From assembly GCF_029223285.1 (NCBI RefSeq), contig NZ_JARHUJ010000004.1, positions 744,001-808,000 on the forward strand: a DNA stretch of 64,000 bases, written 5' to 3'. This document shows, piece after piece, positions 35,000 through 45,391 of this stretch. The DNA is from Paraflavitalea sp. CAU 1676. Lineage in GTDB: Bacteria > Bacteroidota > Bacteroidia > Chitinophagales > Chitinophagaceae. The position numbers were made by a program, and so were the translations under genes. Numbering within the stretch: the first letter of the stretch is position 1; each line of letters opens with the position of its first letter. The notes under the pieces were generated by a model, which was not told where the DNA came from, did no database searches, and worked only from the letters and a program-made list of their open reading frames with translations.

Positions 35000-36463
35000 A
35001 TGCGAAACCCATGGCTCCTTGTCCTATTAATGATCTTTATCCTGCTGCATTCCGCTACAGCCCAGGATAATCCAACATTTGCAGACAAAATCCTCGGCCT
35101 TCCCGCTAAATTTAACGACCGCATTCAAAAGAAAGCTGACAAACTCGAAGAGCAACTCACCCGTCAAACTGAAAAATACCTGCAACGGCTGGCCCGCAAA
35201 GAAGAAAAGTTGCGCCGCAAGCTGATGAAGACCGACTCGACGGCCGCCAAACAACTTTTTGATGGATCAGCCGAACAATACGCGAAGCTCTCCGAGAAGT
35301 TGAAAAATCCCACAGCCATCACCGGCAGGGCAGGCGGGCAATACCTACCTTACGTTGACTCCCTCAAGACATCTCTTTCATTCCTCGAAAAGAATAAGGA
35401 CCTGCTCAATTCCGAGGAAGCAAAAAAGATCACCGGTTCCTTACAACAAGTGCAGCAGATCCAGGGTAAACTGCAACAGACCGAAGAAATAAAAGCTTTT
35501 ATCCGTCAGCGTAAAGAACAGATCAAGGCTACGCTCAGCCGCTATACGAACCTGCCGGCTGGCCTCACCAAAGGGTATCAGGATTTTCAAAAGGAAATGT
35601 ATTACTACACTCAACAGGTGCAGGAATACAAGGACTTGTTGAATGATCCTGACAAACTACTCAATAAAACACTTTCGCTTCTTAATAAACTGCCCGCCTT
35701 CCAGGACTTCATGAAGCAGCATTCCGAACTGGCCGGATTATTTTCTGTGCCGGCAGGATATGCGAGCGGTCAAAGTCTGGCCGGTTTGCAAACCCGCAGT
35801 CAGGTGCAACAGCTGATGCAAAACCAATTGGGAGCGGGTCCCAATGTGCAGCAGATGATGCAGCAGAATCTGTCTGCAGCCCAGGCGCAGTTGAATGAGC
35901 TGAAAGATAAGATCAGCAAACTGGGTGGCGGTGGCGCCGACCTGGATATGCCCAATTTCAAACCCAACAACCAAAAAACAAAATCCTTCTGGAAGCGATT
36001 GGAGTATGGCTCCAATCTGCAAACGCAGAAGTCCAATGTTTTCTTTCCCACCACTTCCGATCTCGGTTTATCTGTCGGTTACAAGCTGAGTGATAAAAGT
36101 ATCATCGGTATCGGTGGCAGCTACAAAGTAGGGTGGGGGAAGAATATCCGTAACATCTCCATCAGCAGCCAGGGGGCGGGATTGCGCTCATTCCTTGACG
36201 TAAAACTCAAAGGCAGTTTCTTCGCCTCCGGCGGATTCGAATACAACTACCAGCCATTATCGTACACCGAAACACTCACTCCCCAGGATCAGCATCGGGT
36301 AGAAGAATGGCAACAAAGCGGACTCGTAGGCGTCAGCAAGATCATCTCTCTCAAAAGCACAACCTTCAAAAAAACAAAACTGCAGTTGCTGTGGGATTTT
36401 CTCAGCTACCAGCAGGTACCCAAAGCCCAGGCGTTGAAGTTTAGGGTGGGGTATAGTTTTTAG
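35000..36463 (+). CDS. Exported protein with coiled coil and C-terminal barrel-like domain, next to RHS genes
   Basis: 487 residues. Signal peptide (WLLVLLMIFILLHSATAQ), then a charged helical region with coiled-coil heptads (RIQKKADKLEEQLTRQTEKY, RLARKEEKLRRKLMK), more helices up to ~310 rich in Gln and Leu, a Gly-rich hinge (KLGGGGADLDMPNF), and a C-terminal ~150 residues with barrel-type strands (DLGLSVGYKLSDKSIIGIGGSYKVGW, FLDVKLKGSFFASGGFEYNYQ, final KFRVGYSF). No named family recognised. It sits 265 bases upstream of the RHS-like genes on the same strand and could supply an outer-membrane export or anchoring function for them; this is inference. Confidence 0.72.
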   Translation: MRNPWLLVLLMIFILLHSATAQDNPTFADKILGLPAKFNDRIQKKADKLEEQLTRQTEKYLQRLARKEEKLRRKLMKTDSTAAKQLFDGSAEQYAKLSEKLKNPTAITGRAGGQYLPYVDSLKTSLSFLEKNKDLLNSEEAKKITGSLQQVQQIQGKLQQTEEIKAFIRQRKEQIKATLSRYTNLPAGLTKGYQDFQKEMYYYTQQVQEYKDLLNDPDKLLNKTLSLLNKLPAFQDFMKQHSELAGLFSVPAGYASGQSLAGLQTRSQVQQLMQNQLGAGPNVQQMMQQNLSAAQAQLNELKDKISKLGGGGADLDMPNFKPNNQKTKSFWKRLEYGSNLQTQKSNVFFPTTSDLGLSVGYKLSDKSIIGIGGSYKVGWGKNIRNISISSQGAGLRSFLDVKLKGSFFASGGFEYNYQPLSYTETLTPQDQHRVEEWQQSGLVGVSKIISLKSTTFKKTKLQLLWDFLSYQQVPKAQALKFRVGYSF

Positions 36464-36728
36464 AGAACGTCTATAAACTAAGAGCACGAAATCAAATTAC
36501 CTGATAAACCTAAACTAAATCTTAACAATCATGAGAAGAATGTCACATCTTACCGACTCAAACCAAGCCCCCTTCGTTTATTGTAAGCGAACCAGATTTC
36601 TACTCTAAAGAGATCGCACAGCGAATTTTCATTTTTTTCTGAATTCTTAATTGCTTTTTGGCAATGGACAGTTTGCAAAAATTGCCCAAACGGCCAACCT
36701 ATTTCTATTCAAGAAACACACAATTTAC

Positions 36729-39700
36729 ATGAAGAAAGTTCTTAGTTCAACGTATCCGTTGATACTGTTGATGTTGCTATGTATTTCGTCAATGGCACAA
36801 ACCAATAATTATGCGGTAACGTTGCCCGAAGTGTTACCGGCTTCCCCCGAGCCCTGGGCTTTTGTAAAAGCCGGATTGGGAAACACCAATATGTCAACTG
36901 GGGCCGTGTCGGCAAAAATTCCCTTGTATGACATTAAGCTCAGAGATTTTACATTCCCGATATTCTTATCCTATTCCACCCAAGGGTTAAAAGCCGATGA
37001 AGCCTCTTCCAGGGTGGGTTACGGTTGGGTGCTAAATGCCAACGCAATGATCACTCGCTCGGTAAGAGGTAAACCCGACGAAATGACGCTTCGTCGACCG
37101 ATGTTGACAGATTGGTATGCCAATGTCGACTCTGTCTACAATTATTACATGGATATGTCAAACCCCAACTCGATGTATGATAGTCAGCCCGACGAGTTTT
37201 CATTCAGTTGTAATGGGTATTCGGGGAAGTTTGTATTAGACAATAATTTTATTCCCCGCATGACCTCTACCAGTAATGTAAAGATCGAAGTGGGAGGAGG
37301 CTTTGTTCCAAGTACTTCAAGTTCCATCGGTCCGTTCTATATTACGACTCCCGACGGGGTGCGTTTCAAATTCGGGGAGACCTACGAAAGAACAACCAGC
37401 AATAATCTGATGTTTAATAGTGCTTTCAAGCTGGTGACCCGCACTGCCTTCTTCCTGAACTCCATCACATTGCCCAGCGGAGATTTTATCAATTTTCAAT
37501 ACTCACCGATCGCCCTGAATGTGCGAACAGGTGTTACGCAAACCTTGCAGGTTGCAAAACAAGGCGGAAGGCAGGAATGTGGGGATTGTGAGTCGCGCAA
37601 TAGTTATACTACGCAAATTAATAGCGTGAATTACCAGTCTCATTATCTTACGGGCATCACCACTTCAAGTGGGCAATGGCTGTCGTTCGACTATGAAAAT
37701 CAAACAGACCTTACGGGGGATGTGAGACTTAAAGGATTTATAGTTTCGGGATTAAAAGAATTCAGGTTTAATTATTATGACGTTCCTGGCACGGGAGTGG
37801 GAAAGCCGCTCGGACGATTCTTCCTGACAAGAGTTCGCCAGATCAATTATGATGCTACAGAATCGGGTACGGACACTTCCTTTGATTATTCTTTAACGTA
37901 TAATCAGCTTGATAAAGTGCCGCTGCCGATCACTTTCGCACAGGATTATCTGGGTTTTTACAATGGTCAAACAGGCAACAATTACCTGATACCACCTTCG
38001 GTAAATTCCAGCAATACGATCGATATCAGTCATAGATCTTTCAATACGACGGAAACGATGAAAGGTGCCCTGGTTGAAATCAAGTACCCGACGGGTGGCA
38101 GGGAAGAGTTTGTATATGAGGCCAATACTTCGGGCAGGTATCAGGTAAACAAAAGGGCTTTTTACGTTGATCTCTATAGAGCCGGCATCGGTTATGCGAC
38201 CTATACGTACGACAATATAGAGGTACATAAGGATCAGGTTGGAACACTTATGGCAACAGCCGTAGATGCGGATCCCAACGACGGTTACCTGGAGGATCCT
38301 GGGCACAATACCGTTGTTTTGAAACTTTTTGATGAGAGTACAAGTACATTGATTACAACAGTTACCCTGATGGGACTAACTACCAATAATGTTAACGTGA
38401 ATTTATTGGCAGGCCATAACTATAAGCTTGAGCTTACAGTGAAGGGAAGCATAAACTGGGGCAACGGAACACTGCATTATGATAATAGCTGGACTGATAT
38501 TTATGACACCGTTTATGTGGAAACTTCGTTACCCGGAATACGTGTAAAGCAAATCAACTATTCGTCGCCGGGAACATTTGGCAACTATTCCAAATACTTC
38601 AAGTACGCCAGTTTAACTGATCTGCAAATGTCAACGGGGTTAGAGTACCTGAATTCCATCTTTCATAGCACTTCTGTTTCGAAGAATTTTTGCGGAGACT
38701 TTGGGGCTTATGAAACGCACTGCCTTCTCGATATCTATTCCTCAAACACGGCGAGTGATGTATATGGATCGGTAGGAAGCGGAAGCCTTATTTACTATAC
38801 ATCGGTGATTGAAAGCGATGATCCAAACTTTGCCAATGGAGGCACACAGTATAACTTTTTCCCGAATGAAATGGGAGGAAACCAGGTTTCTCTACATGGT
38901 GGCGATATCCCCTATCTTCCGCAAGGGCAGGCTCCAACTTTATCTGGTGAGGTATCCTCTAAATGGATATTTAACAAGGATAAGCAAATTGTAGAAAAGG
39001 AGGAAAATGAATACGAAACGCTATATTATTCCGACCCAACCGTCTATTCAGTGTTTGTAAGGAAAAACTGGGAACCGTTTCCTGATCGCCCCGACATCCT
39101 TGAACCATTCGATGCAACAAGAACGCATTACGCTAATTGGTGGATCAGGCGGAAAAGTAAAACAAATACAAATTATGCGGGAGGGGGCACATCAATTAGT
39201 AAAACAGATTACCAGTATGGGCTTCCTGTAAATATTCAACCCACCTTTTTGGTTACAACCAATAGTAAGGGTGAGCAGGTAAAGACTGAGACCAGGTATC
39301 CTACGGATTTTCCTTCAAATCCTGTAATGGCAAAACTGGTTCGTAAGAACATTGTAGCACCCGTTATCGAACAATCTTTATACAAGAGCGGAACGGTAAT
39401 GCAAAAGAAACAAGTTACTTATCGGGATTGGTTTGGCGACAGTACAATCGTGTTGCCCGATACAATCAAAACTAAGTTAACACCAGCGGCCTCACTGGAG
39501 ACTGATCTTGTATTTGCCAAATACGATACCCGGGGAAATATAAAGGAGTTGAAAAAGGAGTCGAATATACCTGTTGCTTACTTGTGGGATACCATTCGGG
39601 CAGTACCGGTTTGTGAGGTGAAAAATGCTACGGTTCAGCAGTTTGCTTACGCCGGCTTTGAAGACGGTACTGGCTTGGGAGGCTGGCAATTGAACTCAGG

Positions 39701-40655
39701 TAGCGCCAGTGAGGGAACAGCATTTACGGGAATGTATGATTTCACGGGTTCGATATCCTGGACGGTAGCAGTAGCCGGCACCTATACTGTACAACTCTGG
39801 GCCAAAGGAAGCGTAACCGTAAATGGCGCAACTGGAAAGAACCTCCGTTCAGCACGCGGTTGGACGCTTTATGAATGGTCGCTTACCAATCCTTCATCGG
39901 TAGCTGTCTCCGGTACGCATATAGATGATGTGAGGCTGTATCCTCAGAATGCCATGATGAAAACATTCACCTATAAGCCATTTGTGGGTGTTACTTCCCA
40001 AACCAATGAATTGGGAATAGCCTCCTATTTCGAATATGACAACATGCTTAGGTTGTTGATGGTAAGGGATATCGATAGCAATATCATCAAAAGGTATAAA
40101 TATGAATTTGTGCCGCAGGAATCTGCTACTGCCACCTGGCAGCCCACGGGAGCAACGAGGTGTAAACCTTGTGCATCTAATCCGTTGTATAGTTCTACTA
40201 TCCAGGAAAGGGAAGAGAAGGACATCAATCAAACAAGTAGTACTTATAACCAGCTCCGTTGGGTCGAGACAGGCGCTTCCGGAAGTTGCTCGGCAAATGC
40301 GGTTTGGCAAAATACCACCACCACGCCTCGGTGTGTAAAGGACGGACAGAATAATAATACCGGGGGACGGGAGCAAGAGCAAAAGGATGTAAATCCATGC
40401 AGCCTTACCTATAATCAGACCCGCTGGATTACGATTTCTTCTGATGAAAATGCGTGCCCCTTGCCATGTCCCGGTTGCAACACGATTGATAAGAAGTGTA
40501 TAAATGGCGTTTGTGAAACAGGCATTTTGGACTTTGTAAGTTCAGTGCAGGTCAATGGTTACACCTGGCATTGTACCTGGAGGTACAAATTTTCTGACCT
40601 AACCTATTCTGCCAATTTCGTGATTGTAAGTTCAGGCCATTGTGAAGTGGATTAA
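36729..40655 (+). CDS. Large exported RHS-shell-like protein with Cys-containing C-terminal repeats
   Basis: 1308 residues from ATG 36729, chosen for its signal peptide (VLSSTYPLILLMLLCISSMAQ). The N-terminal part has the SpvB/RHS-style opening seen in Bacteroidota: STGAVSAKIPLYDIK, then FPIFLSYSTQGLKADEASS and VGYGWVLNANAMITRSVRG. RHS/YD-like beta segments continue through the protein (FEYDNMLRLLMVRDIDSNIIKRYKYEF near residue 1105). The C-terminus has two copies of a ~31-residue module containing KD(I/V)N, TYNQ and RW, then a Cys-rich end (CPLPCPGCNTIDKKC). No toxin domain or RHS core motif is seen. The stop is 36 bases before the RHS gene, so the two likely form one operon and perhaps one shell. 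Confidence 0.75.
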   Translation: MKKVLSSTYPLILLMLLCISSMAQTNNYAVTLPEVLPASPEPWAFVKAGLGNTNMSTGAVSAKIPLYDIKLRDFTFPIFLSYSTQGLKADEASSRVGYGWVLNANAMITRSVRGKPDEMTLRRPMLTDWYANVDSVYNYYMDMSNPNSMYDSQPDEFSFSCNGYSGKFVLDNNFIPRMTSTSNVKIEVGGGFVPSTSSSIGPFYITTPDGVRFKFGETYERTTSNNLMFNSAFKLVTRTAFFLNSITLPSGDFINFQYSPIALNVRTGVTQTLQVAKQGGRQECGDCESRNSYTTQINSVNYQSHYLTGITTSSGQWLSFDYENQTDLTGDVRLKGFIVSGLKEFRFNYYDVPGTGVGKPLGRFFLTRVRQINYDATESGTDTSFDYSLTYNQLDKVPLPITFAQDYLGFYNGQTGNNYLIPPSVNSSNTIDISHRSFNTTETMKGALVEIKYPTGGREEFVYEANTSGRYQVNKRAFYVDLYRAGIGYATYTYDNIEVHKDQVGTLMATAVDADPNDGYLEDPGHNTVVLKLFDESTSTLITTVTLMGLTTNNVNVNLLAGHNYKLELTVKGSINWGNGTLHYDNSWTDIYDTVYVETSLPGIRVKQINYSSPGTFGNYSKYFKYASLTDLQMSTGLEYLNSIFHSTSVSKNFCGDFGAYETHCLLDIYSSNTASDVYGSVGSGSLIYYTSVIESDDPNFANGGTQYNFFPNEMGGNQVSLHGGDIPYLPQGQAPTLSGEVSSKWIFNKDKQIVEKEENEYETLYYSDPTVYSVFVRKNWEPFPDRPDILEPFDATRTHYANWWIRRKSKTNTNYAGGGTSISKTDYQYGLPVNIQPTFLVTTNSKGEQVKTETRYPTDFPSNPVMAKLVRKNIVAPVIEQSLYKSGTVMQKKQVTYRDWFGDSTIVLPDTIKTKLTPAASLETDLVFAKYDTRGNIKELKKESNIPVAYLWDTIRAVPVCEVKNATVQQFAYAGFEDGTGLGGWQLNSGSASEGTAFTGMYDFTGSISWTVAVAGTYTVQLWAKGSVTVNGATGKNLRSARGWTLYEWSLTNPSSVAVSGTHIDDVRLYPQNAMMKTFTYKPFVGVTSQTNELGIASYFEYDNMLRLLMVRDIDSNIIKRYKYEFVPQESATATWQPTGATRCKPCASNPLYSSTIQEREEKDINQTSSTYNQLRWVETGASGSCSANAVWQNTTTTPRCVKDGQNNNTGGREQEQKDVNPCSLTYNQTRWITISSDENACPLPCPGCNTIDKKCINGVCETGILDFVSSVQVNGYTWHCTWRYKFSDLTYSANFVIVSSGHCEVD

Positions 40656-40691
40656 GGCAGCTACAAGCATAGATGAACTAATACCTAACTA

Positions 40692-43600
40692 ATGAAAAAG
40701 ATTTCGATGCATACAATATTTAAGAAGAATAAATATTTCATTGTTTCGCTGCTACTGGGGGTAAGTGCGGATGGAATAGCCCAAACACCGGTAACTCCCC
40801 AGATCCCTTATGAAGGAAACGCAAAGGTGAATTATATCCGCACCTGGGAGGCTTCGGCGCCCGAACAGAATGCGGCAACGTTAACAGGCCGGCCATTGAA
40901 GGATGTAAAACAGGGAACGACCTACGTTGATGGGTTGGGACGCCCGATTCAGACTGTAGTGAAGCAGGGTTCATTGGCTACGGGTGCTTCCGGCGGCCCA
41001 ACTGACCTGGTAATAGCGGTCGTTTATGATGGGTTTAGCCGGGAGAAGTTTAAATATCTTCCGTTTGCCGCCAATAATAAGGACGGTAATACTTCAATTA
41101 ATGATGGCTTATTCAAGCTTAACCCGTTCCAGCAACAAGTACAGTTTTACAATAACCAATTGACGGGTCAACCCCTGGAGACCAATGTAGGCACCGGTAG
41201 CCTCAATTGGGCCTATGGACAAACCACTTTCGAAACTTCACCGCTCAACAGGACGCTGGAGAGTTTTGCACCAGGCTCCAGCTGGGTGGGCACTGCGGGA
41301 GATGCCACGGAAGCCAATCGCCATTCGGTGAAAGCAAAGTACTACTTCAATACGGCAACAGATGACGTAAAGATCTGGAAGGTGATCGATAGCGTTAATA
41401 AATGGGGCTCCTATTCGATGACAGGTGTTTATGGTGCCGGGGAACTCTCTAAAACAATCACCGTAAATGAGCACAACAAGCAGGTGATTGAGTTTAAGGA
41501 TAAGGAGGGGCAGATCATATTGAAAAAAGTCCAGGTCAATGGGGCAGGTGATGATGGCTCTGGTATCAGCTACCCTAATTGGCTGTGCACGTATTATGTG
41601 TATGACGATCTTAACAGGCTTCGGCTGGTGATCCCTCCGGTTGCCGTAAATCATTTATTTGCATCTACCTGGAGCAACGCCACGTTGCTAAATATGCTGC
41701 CGAATTTGTGTTTCCGGTATGAATACGATTCCCGTGGACGTATGATACGCAAGAAAGTAGCCGATGGTGGCGAAACCTGGATGGTATATGATGCGCGGGA
41801 TAGGCTGGTATTATCACAGGATCGTCAGATGCGTACGGGCTACAAAGGGTGGATGTATACAAAATATGATGACCTGAATCGTCCTGTTTCCACTGGCTTT
41901 ATACCTGATATAACCTATTGTGCAGACCTTGCTTACCATGTTAATGCAGCCTGGAGCAGTACCAATTATCCTGACCTGAATAACTATGTGGAAGAGGTTT
42001 ATACAGAGACATTTTACGACAACTATAGTTGGTTGAATAGCTTCTCCTCCTCACTAGATTCGAATTACATCAATACATTCGATTCTTATTTGTATGCACC
42101 TTCTGCAAGCTATCCTTATCCACAGGCAACCACTCCCTCCACGAATAAAAAGGGGCTGATCACGGGCACACGGGTAAGGGTGGTTGGGCCAGTTGTTTCC
42201 TACTTTTTTACGCTGAATATTTATGATGATAAAAGTAGAATAGTACAAACGAAAGCAACCAATATTACCGCCGGAACAGATATTACCACGACCCAATATG
42301 CCTGGAACGGTCAGCCCTTGGTAGTTGTTCAAAAGCAACAAAAAGGAGGTGCCAATCCACAATCACACATCATTGTTACTAAATTGTCTTACGATGATCT
42401 TGGGCGATTGTTGACCGTTAAAAAAGCAGTCAACAGTACCATTGGCAGCCAATCATTGTCAAAGACTGAGCAAACCATCGTACGCAATGAGTACGATGCG
42501 CTGGGGCAGTTGAAGAAGAAATTCCTGGCGCCGGGTGCAAGCGGCGGGTCATTAGACTCACTCACCTATGACTACAACGTGCGGGGCTGGATGCTGGGTG
42601 CAAACCGGGAATACGCAACGGATACCATTAGCGCCGCCAATAGGTTTGGATTTGAGTTGTCCTATGATAAAACCAGTCTTACCGTCAATGGCGTGGGTGC
42701 TAATTACACGTCCAATCGACGCTACAACGGCGATATTGCCGGCATGCTCTGGAAGAGTGGGGGAGACAGCAGGTTGAGGCGCTATGACTTTAGTTACGAT
42801 GTGGCGAATCGGCTGATTGATGCCGACTTTAAACAATTTACCGGTAATGGTTTTAACCGGAACGCCGGTATCGACTTCACGGCAACTGGAGTTACCTATG
42901 ATGCCAATGGCAACATCCTCACGATGAACCAGCGTGGACTGAAGCAGGGTAGTAGTGTTACTATCGATAGCTTGTTGTATAATTATTATACTTATAGCAA
43001 CAAGTTGATGAATGTGATTGACAGGGCCAATGACACGGCGACGACCCTGGGCGATTTTAGGGCATCGGGAAAATATATGCAAAGCCTGACCGGGGGTAAA
43101 ACGAACTCAACGGTTGACTATACCTATGAAGCCAACGGGAATCTGAATACAGATCGAAATAAGGACATAGAAGGCGGTATAGCGTACAATCAACTGGCAT
43201 TGGTTCGGTATGTGGAAGTTAAGACTCCGGCTGGAACCGTTAAAGGTGGTATTACCTATTATTACGATGCGATGGGTAACAAATTGAAAAAGGTGGTTGA
43301 TGAAACAGGTAAACCGTCTAAAACTACGCTCTATCTCGGTGCTTCGGTATACGAGAACGACACACTGCAATTCATAGGGCATGAGGAAGGCAGGTTAAGA
43401 TTAGCGAAGCGGACATTTACAACAGGCAGTACGGCCAACCAGTTCCAGTATGACTACTTCTTAAAGGATCACCTGGGTAATGTGCGTATGGTATTGACAG
43501 AGCAAACGGATACCGCCAATTACCTGGCCTCTATGGAAGCAGCTTACAGGGCAACGGAAGATAAACTGTTCTACAATATCCCCAAGACCAGCTATTCGAA

Positions 43601-45191
43601 AGCCCTTGTTCCAGGTGGATATCCTGTAGATGCAACAACGAATCCCAACGACTCCCTGGCGCGTACAAACGGCAGTGGCAATAAAGTTGGACCGGCGATC
43701 GTGTTGAAAGTAATGAGTGGTGATAAGGTTGATATTGCGGTGAAATCCTTCTACAAGAGTGGTGGAACAACCAATTCCGGTGGAGATCCGATTGCGGACA
43801 TGTTAAGCTCTCTGGCTTCTGGCATTATTGGAGTTGCCGGCGAAAGCAAAGGAGCATTGGCGGCATTGAGCAACACCTCAACAAGTCCATTATTGGGAGC
43901 TGTGAATAGCTTCAGAAGCAACAAAAATCCCAATCAAACCGGCAAACCAAAAGCATATCTCAACTGGATTTTGCTCGATGAACAACTTAATTATGTTGCA
44001 GGCAGCAGCGGTGCCACACCAGTGCAAAATGCTGATGCTATTTATGCCCTGACGAGTAATGGCCCTGTATCAATTTCAAAAAACGGTTTTTTGTATATTT
44101 ATGTTAGCAACGAAACCCAGAACTGGGACGTGTTCTTTGATAACCTGGCAGTACAGCATATCACTGGGCCAATTACCGAAGAAACTCACTATTATCCATT
44201 TGGCTTGACCATGGCGGGCATCAGTTCAAAAGCTGTTGGTAAACTGGACAATAAGTATGAATACAATGGTAAGGAAAAGCAAGAGAAAGAGTTCAGTGAT
44301 GGCAGCGGTCTGGATTGGTACGACTACGGAGCGAGAATGTACGATGCGCAGATTGGCAGGTGGCATGCGATAGATCCGCTGGCGGAAGTTAGTAGGCGTT
44401 GGTCGCCATTTGTTTACGGACTTGACAATCCAATAAGGTTTATTGATCCCGATGGAATGTCTACGGAAGATGTTACAGAACAGGATCCTAGAAAACCCAG
44501 GAGGTTACCTGATCACTCAGAAGTGCAAAATATGAATAGTGACGAGATAGTTAATGATGTATTGTATGTTGCTTCCGGTCTCGGAAATCAGCCTGAGGAA
44601 GACTTCCGTGCGGAAGGAGAGGAAAGTGTATCAGCGTCGAAAAATGCCCTTAAGATGTATGTCCAGGATCGATTTAAAGGCACCGCGGGTGTGATGGATT
44701 TTGGTGCTATTTTTAAAGATGGCGTTCGCATACCCATAGTTGGCGTAGACTTTCATGATCAAGTAGGTATTAATGTCACACCAATGGTGCAAAGTTTTGA
44801 TGAGTATCTGGGAACCACTGGCGGATCGTCAGGCGCAGATGCGGGCTCAAAGAATGGAGCATCAACGGAAAATGGATATGAAGGAAAGGCGGGGAAGGAT
44901 GGTAATGGAGGAAGCGCAAGTACGAAACATCAACAATCAAGGGAGCAATCGGCTGGCCAGTCTACTTCAAATAATTCTACAAACCACAAATACAACGCGA
45001 CAATGCTTGTTCAGGTGACTATTAATTATGAAGTTGTTGGTGCGGCTGGTGGCAGGAAAAGTCAAAGCCTCACTTATTTTGTAGGTCAAAAGATAAAATT
45101 CAACGCGGATGGTACGGCTTATGGAGCAGGTGAACCTGCTAAATTTAAAGCAGCCGTGATTACCCAGGCGAAACAAAAAATAGATAAATGA
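40692..45191 (+). CDS. RHS repeat-associated core protein (DUF6443 type) with unique C-terminal tail
   Basis: 1499 residues. A signal peptide ([19 protein letters not shown]) is followed by the DUF6443-like region ([30 protein letters not shown]). YD repeats run through the body ([62 protein letters not shown]). The RHS core signature [20 protein letters not shown] starts at residue 1210 and ends with DPDGM at 1252-1256. After it comes a 243-residue tail not shared with RHS shells: an acidic part, a Gly/Ser/Asn linker and a final ~70-residue beta-rich domain ([16 protein letters not shown]). In RHS toxins this position holds the effector. No known toxin motif is recognised. A small two-TM gene overlaps the stop. 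Confidence 0.85.
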
Positions 45192-45391
45192 AAATAGCGC
45201 TTATTAGTTTGTTGGTTTTTCAAGGCGTTTTGGCAATCTACTTTCTAGATAAATGCCTTCAATACACCAATTCTTATAATAACAAAAATATTGAGGGCGT
45301 AGCAGTTTACGGAGTATTGTTTTCATTTCTACTTGTAAATAGTACTTGGATAGTATTAACACTATACAAGAAGAAAATCACTGAAAAGTAG
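45188..45391 (+). CDS. 67-residue two-TM protein, candidate immunity protein for the RHS tail
   Basis: Starts inside the RHS stop (ATGA overlap), so it is translationally coupled. Two predicted membrane helices, roughly residues 3-20 ([18 protein letters not shown]) and 38-59 ([20 protein letters not shown]), joined by a polar Asn/Tyr loop, with a basic C-terminus (LYKKKITEK). No family recognised. A small gene directly behind the variable end of an RHS protein is where immunity proteins are found; a membrane location would suit protection from a membrane-active or periplasm-entering effector. A terminator lies 120 bases downstream. Real coding is supported by the overlap and TM pattern but not by homology. 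Confidence 0.6.

Follow-up and report, generated by a model that had tools for sequence, protein, structure and literature searches.

The window examined here is a 64,000-nucleotide stretch of the 8.84-Mb genome of Paraflavitalea sp. CAU 1676 (family Chitinophagaceae; contig NZ_JARHUJ010000004.1, positions 744,001 to 808,000; G000:C18:744001-808000 in our numbering). Within it lies an operon encoding an RHS protein of 1499 residues with a C-terminal (CT) tail of 243 residues, the subject of this study. The open reading frame (ORF) list and a Kyte-Doolittle hydropathy scan bear out the layout given in a preliminary description made from the sequence alone, namely a 1308-residue gene, 36 bases, the RHS gene, and a 67-residue gene with two transmembrane (TM) segments that overlaps the RHS stop codon. 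An upstream 487-residue ORF was absent from that description. The features are as follows.

35000..36463, + strand: 487-residue ORF, optional third gene of the operon; signal-like N-terminus by eye
36729..40655, + strand: 1308-residue shell-like partner, ATG start; signal-like N-terminus by eye
40692-45191, + strand: 1499-residue RHS gene, from the ORF list
40692..44459, + strand: RHS shell part, with a signal-like N-terminus (by eye), DUF6443, a YD repeat and the core ending in DPDGM
44460..45188, + strand: candidate effector tail of 243 residues (residues 1257-1499), member of a new CT family
44808..44987, + strand: Gly/Ser/Asn/Lys-rich stretch (tail residues ~117-176) between predicted strands, read from the sequence
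44988..45104, + strand: predicted beta hairpin (tail residues ~177-215), the best-aligned part of the family, aligned in seven members
45188..45391, + strand: 67-residue two-TM candidate immunity protein, whose ATG overlaps the RHS stop (-4)

The RHS protein carries DUF6443 at residues 50-205 (Pfam, E 5e-36), a YD repeat (E 1.4e-6) and the RHS-associated core TIGR03696 at residues 1167-1256 (NCBIfam, E 3.9e-15). This places it among RHS-core proteins and agrees with the earlier reading that the core is complete and ends in DPDGM at residues 1252-1256. Across 206 core ends, the last DP motif keeps its Asp in 203/206 and its Gly in 205/206. A phmmer search of the whole protein against the PDB gives no match at 0.01. 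The 1308-residue ORF, which has an alternative longer TTG start at 36651, encodes a protein with no Pfam family at E up to 1 and only weak PDB matches (phmmer, best E 0.016). A homologue precedes the RHS gene, in the same orientation, in 91 of the 105 full-length RHS loci (the window among them) that extend at least 2.5 kb in that direction, with a median of 43 nt separating the two frames, and in 17/20 loci with ~10 kb of upstream sequence. Since this partner is near-constant, a two-protein shell is plausible.

An exchangeable position behind the RHS core

The genome encodes paralogues of the full RHS protein on contigs C1, C21 (two genes) and C19, with a partial match on C12, and their alignments with the window protein end at residues 1257-1277. 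The comparison of tails on shared cores had been set beforehand as the refuting test of an effector role. Three of these paralogues retain 55-79% identity to the window protein over the last 56 core residues and only 12-23% beyond them; the tail is not conserved with the core. The last 277 core residues are matched in 5/5 genus genomes (E below 1e-10) and in 73/147 family genomes (E below 1e-20).

A first set of 100 stretches, fetched mainly around the best-scoring places, yielded 126 core ends including the window. Five with tails of 60 residues or fewer were dropped, leaving 121 tails carried by cores 39-82% identical to that of the window. These tails fall into 82 clusters (blastp, 1e-5), 59 of them single. 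A second set from named genomes (80 loci of 532 relatives, 110 core ends) added 80 further tails, giving a combined set of 201 with the window included. Among the 121 tails, Pfam recognises Peptidase_M91 in eight, DUF4329 in three, Tox-REase-7 in two and NucA/NucB in two, and in one tail each Cytotoxic (colicin E3), an EC869-like CDI toxin, WHH, Colicin-DNase, Tox-MPTase3, VanY, NlpC/P60, Ntox33, Ntox44 and Ntox24. Because 121 tails form 82 clusters and several are known toxins, we regard the window locus as a polymorphic toxin slot, in which the sequence after the core is replaced, known toxin domains sit on sister cores and a small gene follows downstream. The tail position is exchangeable, and the recognised toxin families on the same kind of core support the interpretation, already offered from the sequence, that it is the position of an effector.

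The downstream gene is a general feature. For comparison we used 193 tails, that is, the 201 without three that run off their stretch and without the window, L213, L196, L127 and L165. An ORF of at least 50 residues with an ATG start between -45 and +110 nt of the tail stop follows 185/193 of them; a similar rule at random antisense stops finds one in 38/201. Mean GC falls from 0.456 in the core to 0.403 in the tail and 0.332 in the next 400 nt (n=119), the tail being below the core in 103/119 cases and the next 400 nt in 117/119. At the window locus the values are 0.463 for the core, 0.440 for the tail and 0.309 for the 67-residue gene. Downstream ORF and falling GC together are the anatomy of toxin/immunity modules.

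Two of the own-genome paralogues carry recognisable tails. The tail on C1 (L080:10147-10734) is a colicin E3-type ribonuclease (PF09000, E 8.4e-15) with a cytosolic-type neighbour, and one on C21 (L083:2786-3352) contains a HELFGH zincin-like motif and has a neighbour classed as export-like. Elsewhere, truncated core-plus-tail pieces stand in tandem, with five frames in L107, three in L119, three in L157 and six in L248; the arrays in L119 and L157 include a full-length RHS gene. Such pieces are likely to be orphan toxin cassettes.

A divergent tail family and its membrane-protein neighbours

The search of residues 1257-1499 with profile hidden Markov models that had been proposed for the tail gives a best Pfam match at E 0.43 and no NCBIfam match at E up to 1. 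Across seven family members there is no Pfam match below E 0.065 and no PDB match below E 1 (profile search; sole match DcuS, E 1.1), and NCBIfam finds none in the two members run against it. The expectation of a new effector lacking a known toxin motif thus holds at family level: judged by these searches the CT family is new, while the kind of system is already known. The tail had also been called uncharacterised. It has no known domain, but it is not a pure orphan, as profiles with shuffle controls link six other tails to it.

The members are the window tail, L213 (Foetidibacter luteolus), L196 (Niastella caeni, G293), L281 (G368), L282 (G360), the orphan fragment L165:9721-10029 and L127/L243 (Limnovirga soli, G113). 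They are 14-23% identical to the window. Three of them (L213, L196 and L127) are the relatives counted among the 200 other tails on related cores; E-values in this small set are relative to about 204 tails. The window tail finds L213 at 22-24 bits among the 201 tails, and in four tests 0/1000 shuffled copies reach the score. A profile of the window and L213 finds L196 at 25.1 bits and L281 at 26.0 bits (0/1000 shuffles each), and L282 with 2/1000 shuffles as high. Profiles built without the window recover it, at 17.0 bits from L213 and L196 and at 32.1 bits when L281 is added (0/1000 each). Searched against 394 family genomes, a three-row profile returns the window, G293, G368 (E 2.2e-8) and G360 (E 0.001), with six further weak places at E 0.038-0.092; the matches in G368 and G360 are RHS proteins, matched at the tail position. 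In a phylum sample of 147 genomes the only strong matches are the window and G113, with three weak places (E 0.028-0.087).

The remaining members depend on profile size. The orphan fragment fails with three rows (4/1000 shuffles as high), passes with four and five (0/1000) and reaches 21 bits with a larger profile (0/1000). It has a 117-residue three-TM neighbour of its own (L165:9721-10401) and lies behind another RHS gene and the neighbour of that gene. L127 and the main tail of L165 were first noticed by eye. L127 fails with three rows (107/1000), gives 5.5 bits with four (1/1000), and with five and six rows reaches 18.1 and 24.0 bits (0/1000); we count it as a member. The main tail of L165 was excluded, with 523, 537 and 114 of 1000 shuffles as good for three, four and five rows; with six rows it reaches 9.2 bits (0/1000).

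Several other candidates were discarded. Single-tail searches of 99, 394 and 395 genomes (overlapping samples) matched only the window and G073 (E 9e-4), G132 (E 0.005) and G370 (E 0.008), which by eye are a 3-hydroxyacyl-CoA dehydrogenase, a TonB-like protein and a Gly-rich frame. We take these three as chance, so an E-value near 0.001 alone means little for a tail of this composition. A scan of the genome contigs with the window tail gave 24 pattern matches, none confirmed. The first profile, A1, built from tails chosen by eye, returned its own three members and eight weak places (E 0.0098-0.088); of the latter, L183 and L184 proved unrelated on reading, and the place in G360 (E 0.088) later turned out to be the L282 tail. 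L268 (8.8 bits against the window) was taken as chance on account of a zincin-like HELLH motif seen by eye. The tail family looks real and divergent and, as far as sampled, bound to Chitinophagaceae RHS loci.

Small polytopic proteins follow six of the seven members, compared with 23/193 other tails (p=3.6e-5). Leaving out the window and L127, the two that first caught the eye, gives 4/5 (p=0.0013). The neighbours have 67 residues in the window (two TM windows), 133 in L213 (four), 114 in L281 (three), 119 in L282 (two), 117 in the orphan (three) and 112 in L127 (three). The tail is thus coupled to small polytopic proteins, and a family usually followed by a tiny membrane protein suggests a toxin directed against bacterial membranes together with its antidote. 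The 67-residue protein of the window contains two hydrophobic windows in the Kyte-Doolittle scan, matches no Pfam or NCBIfam family at E up to 1, and against 19 relatives scores no better than E 0.037, itself aside. PADLOC gives no match at E up to 1.

A second tail type, with an N-terminal ..RSF.. motif, occurs at L155:2820-3485, L256:10155-11193, L256:5090-9515 and L266:8849-10646. Two-to-four-TM neighbours follow three of these four tails (L155, L256:10155-11193 and L266), which maybe form a second membrane-acting family.

Possible mode of action

The window tail contains no 19-residue window with a mean hydropathy of at least 1.6, and hence no TM helix. When the seven members are aligned, the columns identical in at least five of six or more rows comprise D, P, A, Y, G, T and T, and none of them is a His, Cys, Glu, Arg or Trp. 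As no hydrophobic helix is present and no catalytic-type residue is kept in the family, the tail is most likely non-enzymatic, and these two features, taken with the membrane neighbour, point to the inner membrane as the site of such a toxin. The preliminary description divided the tail into an acidic segment, a Gly/Ser/Asn linker and a beta-rich end. This stands as a fair reading of the sequence; the beta-rich fold itself can be proposed only with low confidence, since AlphaFold2 gave unusable models (mean predicted local distance difference test score 42.7 for the tail alone, 41.9 with a three-row alignment). Both show the predicted hairpin as two strands, at low confidence, and neither shows regular structure in the Gly/Ser/Asn/Lys-rich stretch. 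A beta-moment test gives a combined p of 0.0008 but is weak, with 1/7 members below 0.05 alone; the best windows do not always lie within the hairpin, and soluble beta proteins would pass as well. Amphipathic strands are therefore suggested for the family only in aggregate.

Taken together, our data favour a non-enzymatic, probably beta-structured toxin that would act at the cytoplasmic membrane and be neutralised by the 67-residue protein; we regard this as the probable reading, with membrane action as such held to be probable to a like degree. In the sequence of events that we infer for toxicity, cleavage, delivery, membrane target and neutralisation, the 1308- and 1499-residue shell-type proteins with their Sec-like signals would be made together, and the 243-residue module would presumably be freed by cleavage at DPDGM. 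Delivered into a neighbouring bacterium, the module would act on the cytoplasmic membrane, where its beta-rich end would insert or oligomerise or where a membrane protein would be its target, and the two-TM protein in the producer's own membrane would block it. A more specific version, in which a beta hairpin, amphipathic and bearing a long arm rich in Ser, Thr, Gly and Asn, inserts into the target inner membrane, served by a Sec-exported shell pair and a tiny two-to-four-TM antidote, is put forward only tentatively.

Several points weigh against the membrane-toxin interpretation. Neither AlphaFold run produced a usable structure. The Fisher tests on polytopic neighbours ignore kinship among the background tails, and seven members are a small number. 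L196 from Niastella caeni has no small membrane gene, the gene for a 908-residue protein starting 88 nt on. The seven candidate immunity proteins (those of six members and that of L165) are not demonstrably homologous, the best pair being matched by 4/500 shuffles. Taken singly, the window tail does not match L196, L281 or L282 significantly (16, 106 and 29 of 1000 shuffles), so its family link runs via L213 and the profiles. The members are biased in composition, and at 14-23% identity their alignment becomes uncertain upstream of the last ~100 residues. Finally, a toxin with a periplasmic site of action or a membrane receptor could likewise be countered by a polytopic antidote.

This last possibility leads to the alternative that we rate highest, a toxin whose site of action is the periplasm or a membrane protein (a receptor, or a secretion or envelope machine), with the two-TM protein shielding that target or blocking entry. 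A tail without a TM helix fits it; Zhang et al. 2012 (PMC3482391) suggest that two-TM immunities of the Imm-CdiI and Imm17 types may stop uptake at the membrane, and ionophore toxins of contact-dependent growth inhibition (CDI) use integral membrane proteins of the target (PMC11630599). Nothing specific speaks against it and the sequence cannot separate it from direct action on the bilayer; we nevertheless consider it rather unlikely. An enzymatic toxin of undetected fold, its membrane neighbour being incidental or an entry blocker, is less likely still. Most recognised sister tails bear enzyme names, and the seven-row alignment is too loose to exclude a misaligned catalytic residue; the alignment nonetheless keeps no catalytic-type column, no profile matches, and the neighbour is polytopic in 6/7 members. 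Very improbable is a structural or adhesive tail, such as a sorting or surface-attachment domain: sorting domains of the type IX secretion system (T9SS) are also beta-rich C-terminal ends (PMC7073777), SprA is encoded in the genome and one member has no antidote gene, but the tail matches no NCBIfam model, sorting domains included, at E up to 1, is replaced on sister cores and is followed by a low-GC small gene, as toxin tails are.

Export, known systems and the wider arsenal

Both large proteins have Sec-like N-terminal signals, assessed by reading the N-termini by eye. VipB/TssC (PF05943) was not found in the genome, other genes of the type VI secretion system (T6SS) not being searched, and no PAAR family occurs among the Pfam matches of the RHS protein at E up to 1. 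By these searches neither the T6SS nor the PAAR-type N-terminus of T6SS-loaded Rhs effectors is seen, in line with the difference from such toxins already noted. The T9SS machinery gene sprA is present; the tail, which NCBIfam leaves unmatched at E up to 1, shows no C-terminal sorting domain of a T9SS substrate. These features fit export without a T6SS, by a putative route read from the N-termini.

The 487-residue protein may be an export or anchoring partner. By eye, its N-terminal part is coiled-coil-like, and its C-terminal ~170 residues are beta-rich, end in -YSF and resemble an outer-membrane barrel. Relatives of this C-terminal part lie upstream in 16 of the 43 full-length RHS loci that cover at least 4.8 kb on that side (window included), a count in which many stretches are too short to reach such a gene, and in 5/20 other loci with ~10 kb upstream fetched. 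Its sole Pfam match is DUF481 (E 0.043), under the family cut-off.

The nearest functional analogue is Tse5/Tsi5 of Pseudomonas aeruginosa, an RHS effector with a pore-forming CT (PMC9637101, PMC10684867). Both systems would combine an RHS shell, a CT without predicted enzymatic activity and an immunity protein with two predicted TM regions. In contrast, Tse5 is delivered by a T6SS, begins with a PAAR-like region and ends in a CT whose helices are predicted to insert into membranes, whereas the window protein has a Sec-like N-terminus, its tail lacks a TM window and VipB/TssC was not found in the genome. Of the two Tse5-type features, the window locus thus has the membrane-spanning putative immunity protein and lacks the membrane-inserting CT helices. 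The CDI ionophores (CdiA-CT/CdiI) are, like the proposed tail, polymorphic C-terminal toxins, and dissipate the membrane potential (PMC11630599); they are five-helix bundles with entry domains on CdiA, in contrast to the RHS shell and probably beta-rich tail seen here. The CdiI proteins of one ionophore group share only ~30% identity (PMC11630599), so divergent antidotes appear normal among them.

Closest in organisation are the Sec-route RHS toxins, including those of Bacteroidetes, of Zhang et al. 2012 (PMC3482391), with a signal peptide, RHS repeats, an exchangeable CT and an immunity gene. As that collection lists both such toxins and the two-TM immunity proteins Imm17 and Imm-CdiI, what is new is the CT family and not the kind of system; our tail family was not met in the part of that source available or with the Pfam models. 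Imm17 is described there with two TM helices, WxW and an Arg between the helices; the 67-residue protein has no WxW and no Pfam match at E up to 1, and we do not assign it to Imm17. The TANFOR/BaCT proteins (PMC7073777) are likewise from Bacteroidetes, mostly with a signal peptide, with polymorphic C-terminal toxins and a hypothesised T9SS export, but they carry an N-terminal TANFOR domain, BaCT is a DNase, and they are not RHS proteins with DUF6443. Literature searches on DUF6443 (no papers), on RHS or polymorphic toxins of this family or phylum and on pore-forming Rhs effectors showed no description of the CT family, within a coverage that excludes most subscription papers. Our results add an unnamed C-terminal toxin family and a candidate antidote to a large arsenal, such cores occurring in 73/147 sampled family genomes. 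Should the tail be shown to be a membrane toxin of beta type carried by a Sec-exported RHS pair, this would separate RHS pore-formers from the T6SS and from alpha-helical pores.

The neighbours of the first set were classed by simple rules into 18 polytopic (including the window, L127 and L165), 52 export-like and 44 cytosolic-like, covering 114/121 tails with seven unclassed; Pfam was run by class on 15, 52 and 44 tails, respectively. Cytosolic-class tails include NucA/NucB (two), Tox-REase-7, Cytotoxic, WHH and Colicin-DNase (one each), and further M91 (two), Peptidase_M6, Ntox33 and Ntox24. The export and polytopic classes hold no nuclease match, a second REase-7 tail and the EC869-type tail being unclassed. 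Export-class tails include M91 (five), DUF4329 (three), Tox-MPTase3, VanY, NlpC/P60, Ntox44 and further metallopeptidase matches, and one polytopic-class tail alone has Pfam matches, of Reprolysin type. The cytosolic-to-export counts are 6:0 for nucleases and 3:8 for M91, MPTase3, VanY, NlpC and M6 (p=0.009), which is indicative only, as one tail may match several families and other metallopeptidase matches are left out. The rule probably missed two M91 cases, since on inspection by eye the L081 and L134 neighbours resemble lipoproteins, and it is crude in that 49/183 control ORFs are also called export-like. As an indication, nuclease tails among the classable ones have cytosolic-type neighbours and peptidase tails mostly export-type ones. 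The location of the neighbour (cytosol, envelope or membrane) may thus report where an unknown tail acts, a rule that we suggest for the RHS arsenal.

Exported-looking neighbours (L080-L270) follow 92/190 tails, 32 of them with a strict lipobox; a looser pattern gives 71/193, and control ORFs 49/183. Their presence at about half of the tails contrasts with the Zhang et al. 2012 collection, in which Imm65 is called the only lipoprotein immunity (PMC3482391).

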